In this document: one piece after another, positions 13,801 to 62,366 of the stretch | How the letters are laid out: each line of letters opens with the position of its first letter | How positions within the stretch are numbered: the stretch's first letter is position 1 | DNA from: a virus | Virus record (IMG/VR): IMGVR_UViG_3300020583_000001 | Location: 1-62,366 of that record | DNA length: 62,366 nucleotides | Reading direction: 5' to 3' (one strand) | Notes under the pieces: generated by a model | Database searches by the model: none | What the model was told of the DNA's origin: nothing | The model's input: the letters and a program-made list of their open reading frames with translations, nothing else | Program-made: the position numbers and the translations under genes

Positions 13801-16257
13801 GAACGGCCCGCCAACAGCTCGTGTGGTTGTGGTGGGATATTGCGTGTAAGCGCTGGGGCCACAAGTAGCCGCCGGAGTCTGCGGTGAGTAGCAGACGATC
13901 AGCCACGTTCCCACCGGCCCCTTGGATGCGCCGCTAGTCACGCCGATCCATTGCCGCGCACCGGCAGGCGTGGTCCACGGGGCGCTGGTCACGATCCAGT
14001 AGTTACCCCAATAGATTGTTTCCTCAAATCCCGAGCCTAGCCCCGCACTGATGTCGGAATCGGAGAATACGCATTGTTGCTGCGAGCCTCCGCCCAGACA
14101 ATAAGTGCTGCCAGTGGATGCGAACGCGCCGGGGTTGCGGGTATCAATGATATATCCAGGACCAAGGTTACCCATCAAGGTGCTTAGAGCAAGCGCGAAA
14201 TCGGCGGTCGCAACCGGGACGGTTCCGCACAATGCCACCGTGCAATCACGGATATCGAAGATCGGCTTGGTCTGCGCGATGGGAGCCGCGCCTACCGTAG
14301 GACTGGGAACGAAGAGGCTGCCAGCAGGGACGGTTAGTGCTGCGAGATTGGTTCCAGTTGTGAAATAGGGAAATTGATTCGCGGTCGGGGGGCCGCTGCT
14401 GGTTACCGTGCCGCTGCCGCTCGGCGCGTTCCATGTTCCGTCTCCACGCAGAAACGTTGTGCTAGATGGTGTTCCACTGGCATTGATATCGGCTACGGTC
14501 ACTAAAGCTGTGCAAACACTGGATAGATTTTTGCTGGCATCGGTGCAGATGGGAAGTGAGGCTGTCAGGCCGCTGTCATTGAAAAGCGGCGCTGCTACTG
14601 AAGTCCCGGCAGTGGCCGCACCCCCGATGCTGAAGGCGTGCGTGACTAAATTGTCTACAAAGAAATTGGCGGCACCATTGGCGGTATAGGTTGCCGCTGA
14701 TCCGTTGTACGACCATGCGGCGGTTCCATATAAGCGGTTGCCCACATCGTAAACGTCATCTACGATGGCGAACGTTCCAGCATCATGTTCCGATGCCATC
14801 ATGTTAACCGTAAGCGCAGTCAGAACATTGCTGCTTCCGCCGATAACGTCGATTCCATACTGGGTCTGCTCATAATTTAACTGCCCAATGTTCATCCCCG
14901 GCGAAATCCCGCTTCCTGTGGGATTATTGATCACGACGCAAACTTCATCGTAACCACAAATAAGGTGTTGCACGGCAGCGTGTTCAACTAACGTCAAAGC
15001 GGTAGTAAAGCCATCAGCCCGCAATGTTCCGATGTCGATCAGGTCGGGATTCCCGGCACCGGGAGCGATCACGCATACACCGCCTGCGGTCGGAACTGCC
15101 ACAGGGACGCTGCCCACATCGCAACTATTGAACCCCGGCATCGAGAGTTGGCCGATGGCTACTGCGTTGATCGCGCTGTAAATTGGATTAACCGTCCTAC
15201 GAAATGCGATTCCATTGACGATCAACTTTACGGCAGTGTAACCACTGTTTCCGCCCGTGGATGATCCAGCGCCCGCGATTAGATCGCAACCCGTGCTAGC
15301 GGTTTGAATCACCGTGCCGCCTTGGGCTGCCCCGTTATCTAAATTTAGCGCGGGCGTGAGGCCTTCGATGTCTACAACTGCGAATGGAGTATCGACGAAA
15401 GTTGCGGTGTTGATTGTTGGAACCAGAATCATCGAGGTTGCGGCATTGGAGGTCTGACAAGCGGTGTTTACATTGAATACCCCGGAGGGTAGAAGAATCT
15501 TTGCTTCGGTCGATATCGTAGCCGTGCTAACTGCCGCTTGCAGTGCAGCGCCATCATCGTGATAAACACCTTTACCTGCAGTGGTTGGCGCAGAACTGCA
15601 AGCCGGGGAGATAGTCAGATTCCCCGTCGCGACCGCTGTGATCTTGCTCACGCAATCACTCGTACTCGACCCCGGACAGTGTTGTGTTCCGGTTGCGCCT
15701 GCACCGACGATACACACTCCCTGATTTACTGCAAAGTCAGTGATCGAGGCGACATTAATCGAAGTTGTGGTACTGGCTGTACCAGAAATAGTAGTGCTAA
15801 GATTCGCGCCGGAAGAAGCGACGAGCGCTGACGATGGAATGGAAACAGTTGGATTGATCGGACCTGAAACTAGGTTCTGCGCCGAAATTGCCGAGATACT
15901 AGAAATGGTTCCCGTTCCGCTAGTTGCGAGGGATGACCCGCTGCCCACCGTCATTGCCGCTCCGGTATTCGTCCCTGAGCCAATCGCACTGAAGGCTGGG
16001 GCGGATGCCGATGATCCGGCAAAGGCCCAAGCGCTGCCGGTGTAGATGCAGGCGACTGCCGTGGTTCCGCCACCTACAGTGCAATCGCTGGCGGTTGAAC
16101 CATCGGATACCGTGGCGAAGGTTCCGCGAGACTTCCCGGTGGGTAGGGTGGCAACCGTGTAAGGAGTGAGTCCGGCGTTGCCGCCGCTGCTGCTCGACTG
16201 TGCGACGGCTATACCTGATAATAGAAGCGCGGCGAGGAATAGCTTTAAGTGTTTCAT
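10879..16257 (-). CDS. Giant exported fibre/spike protein, 1792 aa
   Basis: At 1792 residues this is the largest gene in the window. Residues 1-19 (MKHLKLFLAALLLSGIAVA, then Q) form a clear signal peptide with an AVA-Q cleavage site. After a low-complexity head, about residue 230 has DDGAALQAAV, a hallmark of the first turn of pectate-lyase-type beta helices in phage spikes, and a second beta-helix-like domain starts near residue 700. The C-terminal third resembles fibre shafts with repeated Gly/Thr strands. Cysteines are common. The start overlaps the upstream stop (ATGA). A long receptor-binding or polysaccharide-degrading fibre is likely, but a signal peptide is odd for a virion part. Confidence 0.85.
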   Translation of the reverse strand: MKHLKLFLAALLLSGIAVAQSSSSGGNAGLTPYTVATLPTGKSRGTFATVSDGSTASDCTVGGGTTAVACIYTGSAWAFAGSSASAPAFSAIGSGTNTGAAMTVGSGSSLATSGTGTISSISAISAQNLVSGPINPTVSIPSSALVASSGANLSTTISGTASTTTSINVASITDFAVNQGVCIVGAGATGTQHCPGSSTSDCVSKITAVATGNLTISPACSSAPTTAGKGVYHDDGAALQAAVSTATISTEAKILLPSGVFNVNTACQTSNAATSMILVPTINTATFVDTPFAVVDIEGLTPALNLDNGAAQGGTVIQTASTGCDLIAGAGSSTGGNSGYTAVKLIVNGIAFRRTVNPIYSAINAVAIGQLSMPGFNSCDVGSVPVAVPTAGGVCVIAPGAGNPDLIDIGTLRADGFTTALTLVEHAAVQHLICGYDEVCVVINNPTGSGISPGMNIGQLNYEQTQYGIDVIGGSSNVLTALTVNMMASEHDAGTFAIVDDVYDVGNRLYGTAAWSYNGSAATYTANGAANFFVDNLVTHAFSIGGAATAGTSVAAPLFNDSGLTASLPICTDASKNLSSVCTALVTVADINASGTPSSTTFLRGDGTWNAPSGSGTVTSSGPPTANQFPYFTTGTNLAALTVPAGSLFVPSPTVGAAPIAQTKPIFDIRDCTVALCGTVPVATADFALALSTLMGNLGPGYIIDTRNPGAFASTGSTYCLGGGSQQQCVFSDSDISAGLGSGFEETIYWGNYWIVTSAPWTTPAGARQWIGVTSGASKGPVGTWLIVCYSPQTPAATCGPSAYTQYPTTTTRAVGGPFLDASPYSTGTISVAAGNNPIVTGSGTTFTSGMVGGYLTSCATSSSLTATCPNATNACSALITGFTSTTSITISGNWGTEGNNPGVVCPTATAGLVYKIYHPTAIPVLSWAGQITNDSYQTNSFGSVLQDFGVDLEGLPLGIGILYNGTQERDRYFANHVVLNSGNWNNGGSAGCNPGSAGCTGETATAAISACGMWDRTFNFTGEAGPAHYQFYTGDCTTGPSYIASAANTEGYPWVLEAYDIIRGNLGDSGNNPFDQGTVTGKAIGTFQAFHDCGFYDGFLRLHVMNPHCEFDNNGIEVGSLNGGNGVIIQNVSTANMAGAANTAAVHFYSGQTGSHVYNASVIANSTKIVQDDGTAGQTITSSASGCPASGCTVGEYDQPTAFDGTIGAWNANSLNLNGSTSGTFAVTINSTASTLSLGSNASLTSAGALTVVSCSGCGSGGPGTGTQYAPAYWATTSTLGSTTPPTTPNGVPQFMVSTPSGGAATAPVLQLAGVPIDATNPATLLATDRFNFLSWTSGTALALPSLASSGFTNNDGFALRNTEGATITLTPNAGHSDLCDGASTCTILNNFASFVYSDAATNWDRIYFPTFAAFPGCTGVMQFSTTTGFSCNTAPTLTGTNFTGIPNGALTNSATTVNGQTCTLGSTCAVESATSGQMAVSGGSGAALTGAADLTYATHTFSGTANTIFDLSAATGTAAFKVPQTTTNTASAAGVIDFDTTNKNFHGYVNGADSIFANFASAPTTNVIPKAVIASGNTLLANSLLTDTGTTATYTGTGGLAAPVFTATGTTAGFADFPQGTTSAAVAPCNTATSICLMAPTSVTSQLRVFAGAPATGFPLYTNSSGTMTETISATSGTLSSGVGVLGTLAVNAVLASTVANAAGHFTNLQVVTSLGGTCTTVPIFNVFDGTSNVGSTVTAGSTTQTKGTGTSTAQTLTFAAGDIIGIYISTAGATCTLDQFIVSAQYSIP

Positions 16258-47958: not shown

Positions 47959-48310
47959 CTATTATTTTGCGATGGTGGTTATTTTTTATTTTTGTAAATT
48001 ATTGAGCGGGAAGGAGATGGAGCACGTCTCCGTCGCCCCTCCCCCTCTAGTCTGGACAACTCGCACTGGACCGCCACGGTCGGCAATCGTACCGGCATGA
48101 CGGTAACCGGTTCGATGGTCCCAGGGGGTGCGACCAAGGTATCGTCATCGTCCGTCGCTATCGACCGACCGTGAGCTGGCGTCTCATAATGGGACAAGGG
48201 GCCGGGGTAATCTGATGGGACTGAGACACACGTTTAGGGCCATCTTTCGTTATCCGGTTACTATAGTTGGCATGATACGTGCTAAGAGAAGTCACATCCC
48301 CACGCCATCA

Positions 48311-48341
48311 CCAGCTAATCCATCGGCTATCCATTAGCTGG
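48311..48341. repeat. Inverted repeat CCAGCTAAT / ATTAGCTGG
   Basis: Perfect 9-base arms around a 13-base loop, plus a third copy of ATTAGCTGG at 48366-48374. A likely protein-binding palindrome in the divergent control region. Confidence 0.7.
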
Positions 48342-48406
48342 ACGGTAACTAATAGCCGTATACGCATTAGCTGGCGCGTCAGGATTGGGATGCCAAACTA
48401 GGTGAG

Positions 48407-48430
48407 ATCATCATAATAATCATCATAATA
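48407..48430. repeat. Two tandem 12-bp repeats (ATCATCATAATA)
   Basis: Exact tandem copies at 48407-48418 and 48419-48430 in an AT-rich stretch just before the rightward promoter at 48458. They may be operator or DNA-unwinding sequence. Confidence 0.7.
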
Positions 48431-48457
48431 TTTCCACAGGTCGGTAATTGTTTCCCA

Positions 48458-48485
48458 TTGACAAAGAACTGCAATCTGCTAATCT
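48458..48485 (+). promoter_or_regulatory. Rightward promoter of the early arm
   Basis: TTGACA at 48458-48463, then 16 bp, then TAATCT at 48480-48485, a weaker -10 box. The first base of RNA would fall near 48492, which is the ATG of the next gene, so that messenger would have almost no leader. Confidence 0.6.
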
Positions 48486-48491
48486 ATGCAT

Positions 48492-49099: not shown

Positions 49100-49120
49100 T
49101 CGCTCTTTGAGCGAAGCGAA
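49100..49120 (+). repeat. Short hairpin repeat with GAGCGAAGCGAA (copy 1)
   Basis: TCGCTC-ttt-GAGCGA forms a small hairpin (49100-49114), and the extended 13-mer TGAGCGAAGCGAA (49108-49120) recurs at 49699-49711 and 50462-50474. It lies just upstream of the ribosome site AAAAGGAGG. A regulatory or RNA-processing role is possible. Confidence 0.5.
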
Positions 49121-54168: not shown

Positions 54169-54397
54169 CATCCGTAAGTGTCCGTTACACGGCGACATGT
54201 ACTTAACTGAAACCTTTGATGGCACGGGGAAAAAGGTAACAATCTTGGAGTGCCCACAGTGCGACCATCAGCAGCGCGTGCTTACCGCTGACGATATTGA
54301 GCGCATCGGGGAGAAGGCCGCCAAGGCTGGTGCCGTCATCCGTGGCGCGGGAACCAAAGATATTCCGCAAGTCTCGCCCACCGTACTACGGAGCTAA
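54161..54397 (+). CDS. Small zinc-type protein, 78 aa
   Basis: The ATG at 54161 gives a 78-residue product with CPLHGDMY (residues 7-14) and ECPQCDHQQRVL (about 31-42), a classical C-x-x-H plus C-x-x-C zinc site, and a helical C-terminus. It is the last gene of the first rightward block. No family recognised. Confidence 0.6.
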   Translation: MNDIRKCPLHGDMYLTETFDGTGKKVTILECPQCDHQQRVLTADDIERIGEKAAKAGAVIRGAGTKDIPQVSPTVLRS

Positions 54398-54452: not shown

Positions 54453-54560
54453 ATGACTCTCTCCGCACTCCAATACGCTGCACCGCTCCCGATTCAGACG
54501 GTCGGGGAGCTGATCCTGGGATTTGCGGCAAAACGAACACTCCCTTTTAGCGGACATTAA
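54453..54560 (+). CDS. Possible small gene, 35 aa
   Basis: ATG at 54453 with AAGGAAG upstream opens a 35-residue frame (MTLSALQYAAPLPIQTVGE, then helical). Its last codons overlap the first repeat of the CGGACAT array. It is small and unremarkable, so I give it low weight. Confidence 0.35.
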   Translation: MTLSALQYAAPLPIQTVGELILGFAAKRTLPFSGH

Positions 54561-54754
54561 AAATAGGCATGTCCGCACCTATTTTCGGACATCATGCGGA
54601 CACGATTTTAACGTGTCCGCTTTTCTAGGTAAATAACTGAATACATGGGTATTTTGTAAGCGGACATGGGTTAGGACGTATTTCGGATGGATCAGCCAGC
54701 GGACGGACATCATGGGGTTTCTGGAAGAAACCCATGTCCGGCTGTCCTGTCCGC
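54550..54754. repeat. Array of nine CGGACAT-type repeats (iteron-like, candidate origin)
   Basis: In 205 bp the core CGGACA recurs nine times in both orientations: 54550-54557, 54569-54576 (inverted), 54586-54592, 54596-54603, 54613-54620 (inverted), 54660-54667, 54704-54710, 54734-54740 (inverted) and 54748-54754 (inverted). The last four fall in the HNH coding sequence. The first pair forms an 8-base inverted repeat and CGGACATCATG recurs exactly at 54586-54596 and 54704-54714. It lies one gene from the RepA-like ATPase. Iteron-bearing replication origins look like this, but the role is inference. Confidence 0.65.
54596..54626 (+). terminator. Rightward hairpin terminator
   Basis: GCGGACACG (54596-54604) pairs perfectly with CGTGTCCGC (54612-54620) around a 7-base loop and is followed by TTTTCT. 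It ends rightward transcription before the HNH gene on the other strand. It is built from two of the CGGACA repeats. Confidence 0.75.
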
Positions 54755-55122
54755 TGGTTCATCATCCATTGGTAAATCTGTAAAAATATCTCCGGCTCGA
54801 CCTCATCGCACTTGATCCTGTTGGCACGTTGCGAGATAACCGCGATATTGTTTGGAAAGTAACCTCGTCTCGGGTCGATCCTGTCAATGGTTGGGGTATC
54901 TGGACTGGGGCCGCAGTTGCCAATATCTCTATCAAAATAAAACGGTTCTCCGGTAATCGGGCAACAGTTGTCTTTGGGCCATATCTGCTTAATGAACTCA
55001 GGAGTGATGGAACAAGCGATCCCTTCCTTATGAGCGCGGCTTTCGACATTGCGGCACATCAATTTCTCGATTGGCCAAGTTTTCCTTCGTTGCTCATAAA
55101 TTTGCTTCCCGGTTCGCCTCAT
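54625..55122 (-). CDS. HNH endonuclease-like protein, 165 aa
   Basis: The 165-residue product has an HNH-type core: CCPITGEPF (zinc/nuclease fold, about residues 53-61), TIDRIDPRRGYFPNN (about 77-91, the D-R-I-D and N of the H-N-H finger) and IAVISQRANRIK. Such free-standing HNH proteins are homing-type or packaging-associated endonucleases. The start overlaps the stop of the RepA-like gene by 4 bases (ATGA). The last 30-40 residues are encoded within the CGGACAT array and may be an acquired tail. Confidence 0.75.
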   Translation of the reverse strand: MRRTGKQIYEQRRKTWPIEKLMCRNVESRAHKEGIACSITPEFIKQIWPKDNCCPITGEPFYFDRDIGNCGPSPDTPTIDRIDPRRGYFPNNIAVISQRANRIKCDEVEPEIFLQIYQWMMNQRTGQPDMGFFQKPHDVRPLADPSEIRPNPCPLTKYPCIQLFT

Positions 55123-56066
55123 TGAAAAACATCCTTTCTGAGCCGTCGAGCATGACGGTCGGAAATATCAAAAGCTGCCGCCAGATCCGCCGTAGGTTCG
55201 TTTGGGTGAGCTTTGATGTGAGAGATGATTTCGTCGCGGGTATGGGCAATCTCGTAGCGGAACTTGATGGCATCCAGCTTCAAATCGGACACCAATCTGA
55301 GCTTAAAATTGCTCTCTTCTGCGTCTGCTCCGATCTTGGAGTCAACATCAATAGAGACTTTAGTTCCCTCCCGGCTGGTGTACTTTTGGTAGTGGCAAGA
55401 AGTTTGGAAATTAGCAGTTTGAGTGATCGTACCGGCGGCTCGCTTGCTTTTTTTGTCCCACGGAGAGTGGGTAATGACTGTCAAGGGCGACCAGTGAGCT
55501 GAGATATCGACCATCAGGGCGTTGACTGCCGCCATCTCGTCCTGCTCCTTCCAAGAGCGTCCCCCGAGAAGCCCCTGTAATGTACTTAAAACGGTAAAAT
55601 CCGGCTGGTAGGTTTCTATAGCCTGTTTCAGCTTGTCCCCGGTCTTAACGATATCGAAGGGTCCGGTTACCCCAAGGGTAAAGCAGCCGATATCCTTCAC
55701 GTCTGACGCCTTGATCGACATCCCCCGAGCCAGTTGCTGGATGCGCTGCCTGAGCAGCCATTCCGGGTCTTCCGTCTCGATATAGAGGGTCTTTTTGACC
55801 CCGGTAACCGGGAAGTGACCCCAAACCTGGTTGCCCATTGGCGCGTCTATGGCAGCCTGTAGCCATGTAAAAGACTTCATGCCGTGGGGATGGGCGGAAA
55901 TCAGCGTACCGCAGCCTTGGGCCACCAGATTACGAATACGCCAGGGAGCTTCTTTTATGGTCGGAGTTTCAAGAACTTCTTTGAGGTTTAAGAACTTCCA
56001 TGCGGCAGGCAACGATCCGTTGCCATCAATCTTCGATTGAGCGAAGCAAAACGGGCTATCTGACAC
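55119..56066 (-). CDS. RepA/RecA-like AAA-type ATPase with HTH, 315 aa
   Basis: I choose GTG at 56066, which has AGGAG 5 bases upstream, over an upstream ATG at 56129. The 315-residue protein has the P-loop layout of RepA/DnaB-like ATPases but an altered Walker A (ISAHPHGMKSF, where GxxxxGKS is expected) and a Walker B strand FTVLSTLQG in which the usual Asp is Ser. The Lys-Ser of Walker A remains. The C-terminus (TADLAAAFDISDRHARRLRK) is a helix-turn-helix-like end. Such proteins load or drive helicase at plasmid and phage origins. If the ATPase is inactive it may act as an initiator that binds DNA. It is on the minus strand beside the CGGACAT array. Confidence 0.75.
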   Translation of the reverse strand: MSDSPFCFAQSKIDGNGSLPAAWKFLNLKEVLETPTIKEAPWRIRNLVAQGCGTLISAHPHGMKSFTWLQAAIDAPMGNQVWGHFPVTGVKKTLYIETEDPEWLLRQRIQQLARGMSIKASDVKDIGCFTLGVTGPFDIVKTGDKLKQAIETYQPDFTVLSTLQGLLGGRSWKEQDEMAAVNALMVDISAHWSPLTVITHSPWDKKSKRAAGTITQTANFQTSCHYQKYTSREGTKVSIDVDSKIGADAEESNFKLRLVSDLKLDAIKFRYEIAHTRDEIISHIKAHPNEPTADLAAAFDISDRHARRLRKDVFQ

Positions 56067-56115: not shown

Positions 56116-56229
56116 CATAGTTTAACCACTGACCATTCTCAGGCCAGCCCCACTATGGCACACAGACGGCTCCTTGTCTACGGTAACAAGATATATTTTA
56201 TGATTAAAGATTTCCACAGAAGATTTAGC

Positions 56230-56258
56230 TTGACAAGATTTAGTAAACGGATTATCTT
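56230..56258 (+). promoter_or_regulatory. Rightward early promoter
   Basis: TTGACA (56230-56235), 17 bp, TATCTT (56253-56258). Predicted transcription starts near 56265, within a few bases of the next gene's ATG (56269), so the messenger would have almost no leader, as at 48492. Confidence 0.7.
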
Positions 56259-62210: not shown

Positions 62211-62366
62211 GACTAATACCCGTGAGCGGATCGCCCTCTCGCCGGGTTCCTATGGGACGGGTAAAGAACCCGGCCTAAAGATTGTTTCCTACTCCGAAAA
62301 GGGCTCTAAACTCGATAAGTCGGGAGCCATGCGCCACTCGTTTATGGTGGCAGCTACAAGGCCCAG
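62188..62366 (+). CDS. Possible ssDNA-binding/recombination accessory protein (N-terminal part; continues at base 3)
   Basis: The ATG at 62188, after AAAGGAG, begins the 235-residue gene whose C-terminal part is at 3-656. The frame is open through the junction: base 62242 corresponds to base 3, with reading continuous. The N-terminus reads MSFLQQVETNTRERIALS. It overlaps the MazG-like gene by 23 bases. See the entry at 3-656 for the role. Confidence 0.8.
   Translation, partial: MSFLQQVETNTRERIALSPGSYGTGKEPGLKIVSYSEKGSKLDKSGAMRHSFMVAATRP
62240..62366. repeat. Terminal direct repeat, right copy (circular overlap)
   Basis: Identical to bases 1-127. Removing one copy gives a 62,239-bp circle. 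Confidence 0.93.

Follow-up and report, generated by a model that had tools for sequence, protein, structure and literature searches.

A clustered CGGACA repeat array downstream of an AAA_25 RepA-like gene is a probable iteron origin of phage replication

A CGGACA array between convergent genes

In a 62,366-nucleotide stretch of DNA from a soil phage (the window), nine GCGGACATg-type repeats are found 3' of the gene that encodes an AAA_25 RepA-fold protein. Judged from its sequence and surroundings, the array is probably the iteron portion of an origin of phage replication, bound by this neighboring protein. The reading draws on the clustering of the repeats, an A+T-rich dip, a palindrome, a RepA-fold neighbor that ends in a helix-turn-helix (HTH), arrays at the 3' ends of AAA_25-family genes, and CGGACA arrays on initiator genes elsewhere. 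Feature coordinates are given in Table 1.

The CGGACA cores start at 54551+, 54570-, 54586+, 54597+, 54614-, 54661+, 54704+, 54735-, and 54748-, spanning 203 bp (54551-54753) with a flanking consensus of GCGGACATg. An earlier note on this DNA had counted nine repeats in both orientations, and all nine were located; the inverted pairs that it described are also present, as is its 11-base direct repeat, CGGACATCATG, at 54586 and 54704. The genome holds 35 CGGACA copies in total, compared with a shuffled mean of 37.7, indicating that the word is clustered rather than over-abundant. Placing 35 sites at random in 100,000 rounds gave at most 5 per 205 bp, and the top count of any 6-mer per 205 bp is 9 at the array versus 4 to 5 in 60 Markov-1 genomes. 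The array is the strongest 6-mer cluster of the whole genome, and a scan of both strands found no second CGGACA cluster in the genome, which excludes an equal density of the motif elsewhere. Two properties expected of an iteron origin are thus seen here: short repeats clustered beyond chance (nine copies against at most five in the nulls) and an A+T-rich stretch by the repeats, at 54600-54659, whose GC content falls in the lowest 0.4% among genome 60-mers. GC skew across the genome does not single out the array, and the skew check that had been suggested gave no origin signal separable from gene direction.

The window represents a circular assembly of about 62,239 bp with an exact 127-bp end repeat (1-127 = 62240-62366), and its large terminase is 28.9% identical to those of Tunturiibacter phages Tunturi_1 and 2. 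The rightward early operon stops at 54397, and next comes the leftward HNH and AAA_25 pair, in which the AAA_25 gene overlaps the HNH start by 4 bp. The array is placed between the convergent 3' ends, downstream of both leftward genes. Four copies (54661-54753) fall inside the HNH frame, most of them past the conserved HNH core (the note had seen that part of the array overlaps the HNH C-terminus), and the C-terminal tail of the endonuclease is encoded by array DNA. This overlap had been taken as a hint of co-evolution or acquisition; the overlap stands, but co-evolution is better read as an HNH gene lying between helicase and origin, with a tail drawn from array DNA. The array had also been placed between a rightward terminator and the RepA-like gene, but the terminator is within the array and made of two of its copies, and the HNH gene separates the array from the AAA_25 gene, whose stop lies 366 bp before the array starts. 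Beyond the leftward cassette, the promoter-like site at 56230-56258 is a candidate for restarting rightward transcription.

Searching viral contigs with peptide patterns identified no protein closely related to the ATPase or the HNH protein of the window, the locus has no DNA similarity to named phages, and tblastn found no match to the ATPase in phages. Neither the array nor the ATPase had a match in four related contigs. One relative, G004, has a TerL that is 93% identical, and neither the ATPase nor the array was matched in its record, which may be incomplete; the replication module at the array appears to be something that this contig lacks. The window ATPase was also compared with 396 genomes from the phylum to which G005 (the Acidobacteria genome behind L482) belongs. 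Only distant matches were found there (20 to 33% identity), none of which has a CGGACA array as its densest word.

Table 1. Features of the array and its surroundings
Feature	Position	Strand	Remarks
Nine GCGGACATg-type repeats, CGGACA core exact in all nine	54550..54754	mixed orientation	Proposed iteron origin
Perfect 8-bp inverted pair, GCGGACAT-11-ATGTCCGC	54550..54576	.	
Rho-independent-terminator-like hairpin, GCGGACACG/CGTGTCCGC then TTTT	54596..54624	+	Two array copies
A+T-rich dip within array, candidate unwinding element	54600..54659	.	33% GC
HNH/endonuclease-VII-like endonuclease	54625..55122	-	Conserved core to about residue 126 of 165
Large imperfect hairpin/palindrome, stem with CGGACA and TGTCCG copies	54690..54765	.	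No T-run follows
AAA_25 RepA-fold protein	55119..56066	-	Open frame reaches 56129
C-terminal HTH, ISDRHARRLRKD/ADLAAAFDISDRHARRLRKDVF	55122..55193	-	Proposed iteron-binding domain
Sigma-70-like promoter, TTGACA-17-TATCTT	56230..56258	+	Candidate restart of rightward transcription

A RepA-fold neighbor with a C-terminal HTH

The neighboring gene had been described as RepA-like, and comparisons of profile and structure bear this out. Its product matches the Pfam AAA_25 domain at 39.3 bits (cut-off of 27) and a profile of AAA_25 primase/helicases with an hhalign E value of 3.9e-5. A structure model built on a 62-relative alignment (pLDDT 76) has the RSF1010 RepA helicase as its best PDB fold match (E value of 1e-10). 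A GTG at 56066 with AGAGGAG upstream seems a likelier start than the open-frame end at 56129.

The C-terminal HTH is confident even in a single-sequence model (pLDDT 85 to 92), which is too poor outside this region. Its predicted recognition helix, DRHARRLR, contains RHARR, which fits the R-x-hydrophobic-R-R form of the CGGACA group described below. When the window was searched with a recognition-helix regular expression chosen from array-associated proteins, the ATPase was the sole matching reading frame. A putative initiator gene with a DNA-binding domain is therefore present near the array, though the HNH gene intervenes.

Among the catalytic residues considered (Walker A Lys, Walker B Asp, and the following His and Arg), the window ATPase keeps only Walker A Lys85. 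The Walker B Asp, found in 62/62 relatives, is replaced by Ser182; Ser222 stands in place of a His present in all 62; and a near-invariant Arg of the relatives is Ala232. These substitutions suggest that the ATPase is catalytically changed and may not hydrolyze ATP.

Repeat arrays at the 3' ends of AAA_25 genes

AAA_25 loci were retrieved with the ATPase domain as the sole criterion (alignment A2), giving 120 distinct loci; two of these, L374 and L377, correspond to the contigs from which seeds L211 and L144 came, and those seeds were found through their arrays. At least eight copies of one 6-mer occur within 250 bp of the 3' end at 38% of the 120 loci, compared with 0/108 5' ends and 0/487 other positions at the same, strict threshold. 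CGGACA is the commonest 3'-end word, with six or more copies at nine loci, and GGGACA, GTCCTA, CCGTAC, CCTACA, and more are found at others. At most loci of the CGGACA group, direct copies cross the stop codon and are followed by a (CGGACA)n/(TGTCCG)n hairpin; the palindrome at 54690-54765 in the window is comparable to hairpins 3' of other AAA_25 genes.

A helix of the form R-x-[AFILVYMT]-R-R is present at 5/9 AAA_25 loci with CGGACA arrays and at 1/115 others (Fisher, 3e-6), an enrichment that is about 5e-4 when the two seed loci are left out. Helix and word do not follow a strict one-to-one code, since KAFRR pairs with both CGGACA (L382) and CGGGACA (L389).

Among named phages, the layout of array plus palindrome was seen in four of the seven examined, two of which are related Rhizobium phages, and three were without it. 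The words found at AAA_25 genes include CGTGAC in Rhizobium phage 16-3 (15 copies), GGTACA in Idiomarinaceae phage 1N2-2 (11 copies), and CTACAA in Roseobacter phage CRP-823 (11 copies). In phage 16-3 (L533, 2590-2950), the 15 CGTGAC copies and a terminal palindrome occupy the gap downstream of p101, and this array is a candidate origin of that phage.

The window shares with this family the AAA_25/RepA-like fold and, with its CGGACA group, the helix type. It differs in that its repeats lie behind the HNH gene and outside the 250 bp next to the ATPase 3' end, and in having few direct tandem copies compared with its AAA_25 relatives, the copies being more inverted than direct.

CGGACA arrays on other viral initiator genes

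A scan of viral contigs for three GCGGACA within about 70 bp yielded at least 120 stretches. Among the matches listed, open reading frames at dense arrays include O-like replication initiation proteins (15/80 for one family). The 80 array-overlapping proteins likewise include, among the matches listed, 14 annotated as replication initiation protein, 7 with AAA_25 (one being the window itself), and 5 terminase small subunits; DnaD-like loaders are also present. In unrelated phages, CGGACA occurs as direct repeats within the initiator coding sequence, and some CGGACA arrays elsewhere are plain coding repeats. The iteron-origin layout proposed in the earlier note gains support from the CGGACA arrays on initiator genes and from the 3'-end arrays of the AAA_25 family.

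A control scan with the reversed motif returned, among the matches listed, tail fibers and collagen-like proteins with same-strand copies, suggesting that the initiator enrichment is not a general property of repeats. Mixed orientation was seen at 54/91 CGGACA loci and at 5/98 reversed-motif loci among the matches listed; the totals of both scans are lower bounds, and their raw counts are not comparable, the control being inflated by collagen-like coding repeats.

Helices of the array-associated proteins include RHTRR, RHARR, RTVRR, RQVRR, RHVRR, and KLVRR. In L089, L064, and L051, GCGGACAT arrays lie within the coding sequence just past an N-terminal HTH of the ISDRHVRR type, in a protein of 480 to 560 amino acids that has no family assigned and is possibly archaeal. 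In L021, L058, L179, L206, and L223, TGTCCGC arrays lie within or beside genes that resemble those of terminase small subunits and encode an HTH of the DKLVRR type, and it is possible that these are packaging sites sharing the word. Palindromes of AGCGGACAT occur as intergenic repeats in contigs L095 and L105, which we take to be rhizobia-like, and probably belong to an unrelated repeat family.

Comparison with known replication systems

Phage P4 alpha combines an SF3 helicase with a primase, and its C-terminal winged helix is experimentally established to bind iterons at ori and crr. The window resembles this system in its helicase-type protein, C-terminal DNA-binding domain, and iterons, with binding being predicted in the window; P4 differs in its SF3 and primase parts, its iteron, and its experimental proof. 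As in lambda, clustered iterons are tied to an initiator HTH, and O-like initiators of other phages share the CGGACA word with the window. The lambda iterons, however, fall within the initiator gene, whose product O is not an ATPase, whereas those of the window are downstream and partly in another gene, with no CGGACA cluster detected within the ATPase gene.

The origin of archaeal plasmid pRN1 lies just downstream of the ORF904 gene and requires a large stem-loop; ORF904 has a winged-helix domain and pairs a prim-pol with an SF3 helicase (PMC4234260). Its authors noted a comparable stem-loop on the 3' side of a replication gene in a phage and suggested the same origin layout, and they found no iterons at the pRN1 origin (PMC4234260). 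Common to pRN1 and the window are an origin (proposed, in the window) downstream of a replication-protein gene, a stem-loop, and a DNA-binding domain of C-terminal or winged-helix type. Unlike pRN1, the window has a fold of the RecA/RepA type, and iterons are its main feature.

AAA_25/RSF1010 RepA-like phage helicases, including primase-helicase fusions, share with the window the AAA_25 domain, the RepA-like modeled fold, C-terminal DNA-binding helices, and arrayed repeats with a hairpin 3' of the gene. GP46 of lactococcal phage F13, which belongs to this AAA_25/RepA-like type, has demonstrated 5'-3' helicase activity (PMC8965321). The window protein differs from these helicases in its short length, in having no primase portion, and in the absence of several catalytic residues, the Walker B Asp among them, and an HNH gene comes between it and the array.

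A model for the origin and a possible wider rule

In the mechanism that we propose, the C-terminal HTH would bind the GCGGACAT copies through DRHARRLR, and the inverted pairs and hairpin would aid oligomer assembly or extrude. The adjoining A+T-rich DNA would open, and the replicative helicase would be loaded. This helicase could be the RepA-like ring itself or, as the substituted Walker B suggests, host DnaB recruited by the RepA-like protein. The HNH gene between initiator and origin may be a later insertion or a hitch-hiker, and two array copies may also serve as a transcription terminator between the convergent operons.

In the open-access literature we found no report that phage AAA_25 genes have iterons at their 3' ends, and the novelty would lie in such iterons being the rule among phage genes for AAA_25 helicases. 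We put this rule forward tentatively, with rather less confidence than the origin itself. Phage AAA_25/RepA-like genes would carry their own 3'-end origin, in which the C-terminal winged helix reads a word (often in at least 10 copies, usually palindrome-closed) that changes with the recognition helix. GCGGACA would be common to unrelated initiators with an R-x-hydrophobic-R-R type helix (AAA_25, lambda-O-like, DnaD-like, the archaeal-looking HTH protein, and terminase small subunit), and the window would be a divergent, possibly ATPase-dead, HNH-interrupted case. If the rule is true, origins of phages with AAA_25/RepA-like helicases could often be read from the 3'-end word, and the pairing of word and helix would let origin specificity be predicted and checked. 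Most phage origins are unknown, and Rhizobium phage 16-3 would offer a ready test case.

Alternative readings of the array

The window is an atypical member of this group in its HNH separation, its mostly inverted copies, and its possible loss of hydrolysis, which leaves room for the main origin to lie at another site and for the array to be secondary. One example of such a site is a divergent intergenic region near 48.3 kb, which carries ATTAGCTGG repeats; the CGGACA array would in that case be a secondary or relic origin that came along with the ATPase-HNH cassette. That region is partly conserved in G004, which gave no CGGACA-module match, and the ATPase looks catalytically changed; however, there are only three repeat copies and no initiator-like gene was recognized alongside, and we consider this reading unlikely. 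The intergenic region itself (47960-48490) has ATTAGCTGG/CCAGCTAAT repeats at 48311-48374 and shares GTTTGGCATCCC.ATCCTGAC and GGTAACTAATAGC with G004 near 15,850-15,950, beside six CTCACC words. It may be a conserved region for early control, or else a rival origin.

The array could instead be a bidirectional terminator region, its inverted copies forming RNA hairpins that end the rightward early and leftward ATPase-HNH operons. Convergent genes flank it, the array hairpins are stronger than those of shuffled sequences, and the stem at 54596-54620 with TTTT directly after makes a good rightward terminator. Yet only one G+C-rich hairpin, at 54596-54624 on the + strand, has a T-run; the remaining array hairpins are without one, including that at 54690-54765 (-41 kcal/mol as RNA, z of -5.7). 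Termination needs no nine copies of one word, and the direct CGGACA repeats inside initiator genes of unrelated phages also argue against it. Terminator function could account for part of the hairpins, but as the whole explanation it is quite improbable.

It is very improbable, in our judgment, that the array is no origin and instead consists of operators or other regulatory sites recognized by a DNA-binding protein of phage or host (such as a repressor, or the small subunit of terminase at a packaging start). Mixed-orientation pairs are typical of dimeric regulators, and the terminase small subunits (5/80 array-overlapping proteins, among the matches listed) have the similar helix DKLVRR. The array, however, is at gene 3' ends and not at a promoter, the large terminase of the window is about 10 kb off, and the helix expression matches no window frame but the ATPase. 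We place both the terminator-only and the repressor-operator readings below the iteron origin. A REP-like or mobile palindromic repeat cluster with no function for the phage, suggested by the intergenic AGCGGACAT/ATGTCCGCT palindromes of L095 and L105, is scarcely credible, as the genome has no second cluster, the location agrees with the AAA_25 pattern, and the repeated word is that of the helix-sharing group.

Elsewhere in the window, a TGAGCGAAGCGAA element recurs at 49103, 49694, and 50457 in the rightward early operon, with a weaker fourth copy at 56033.
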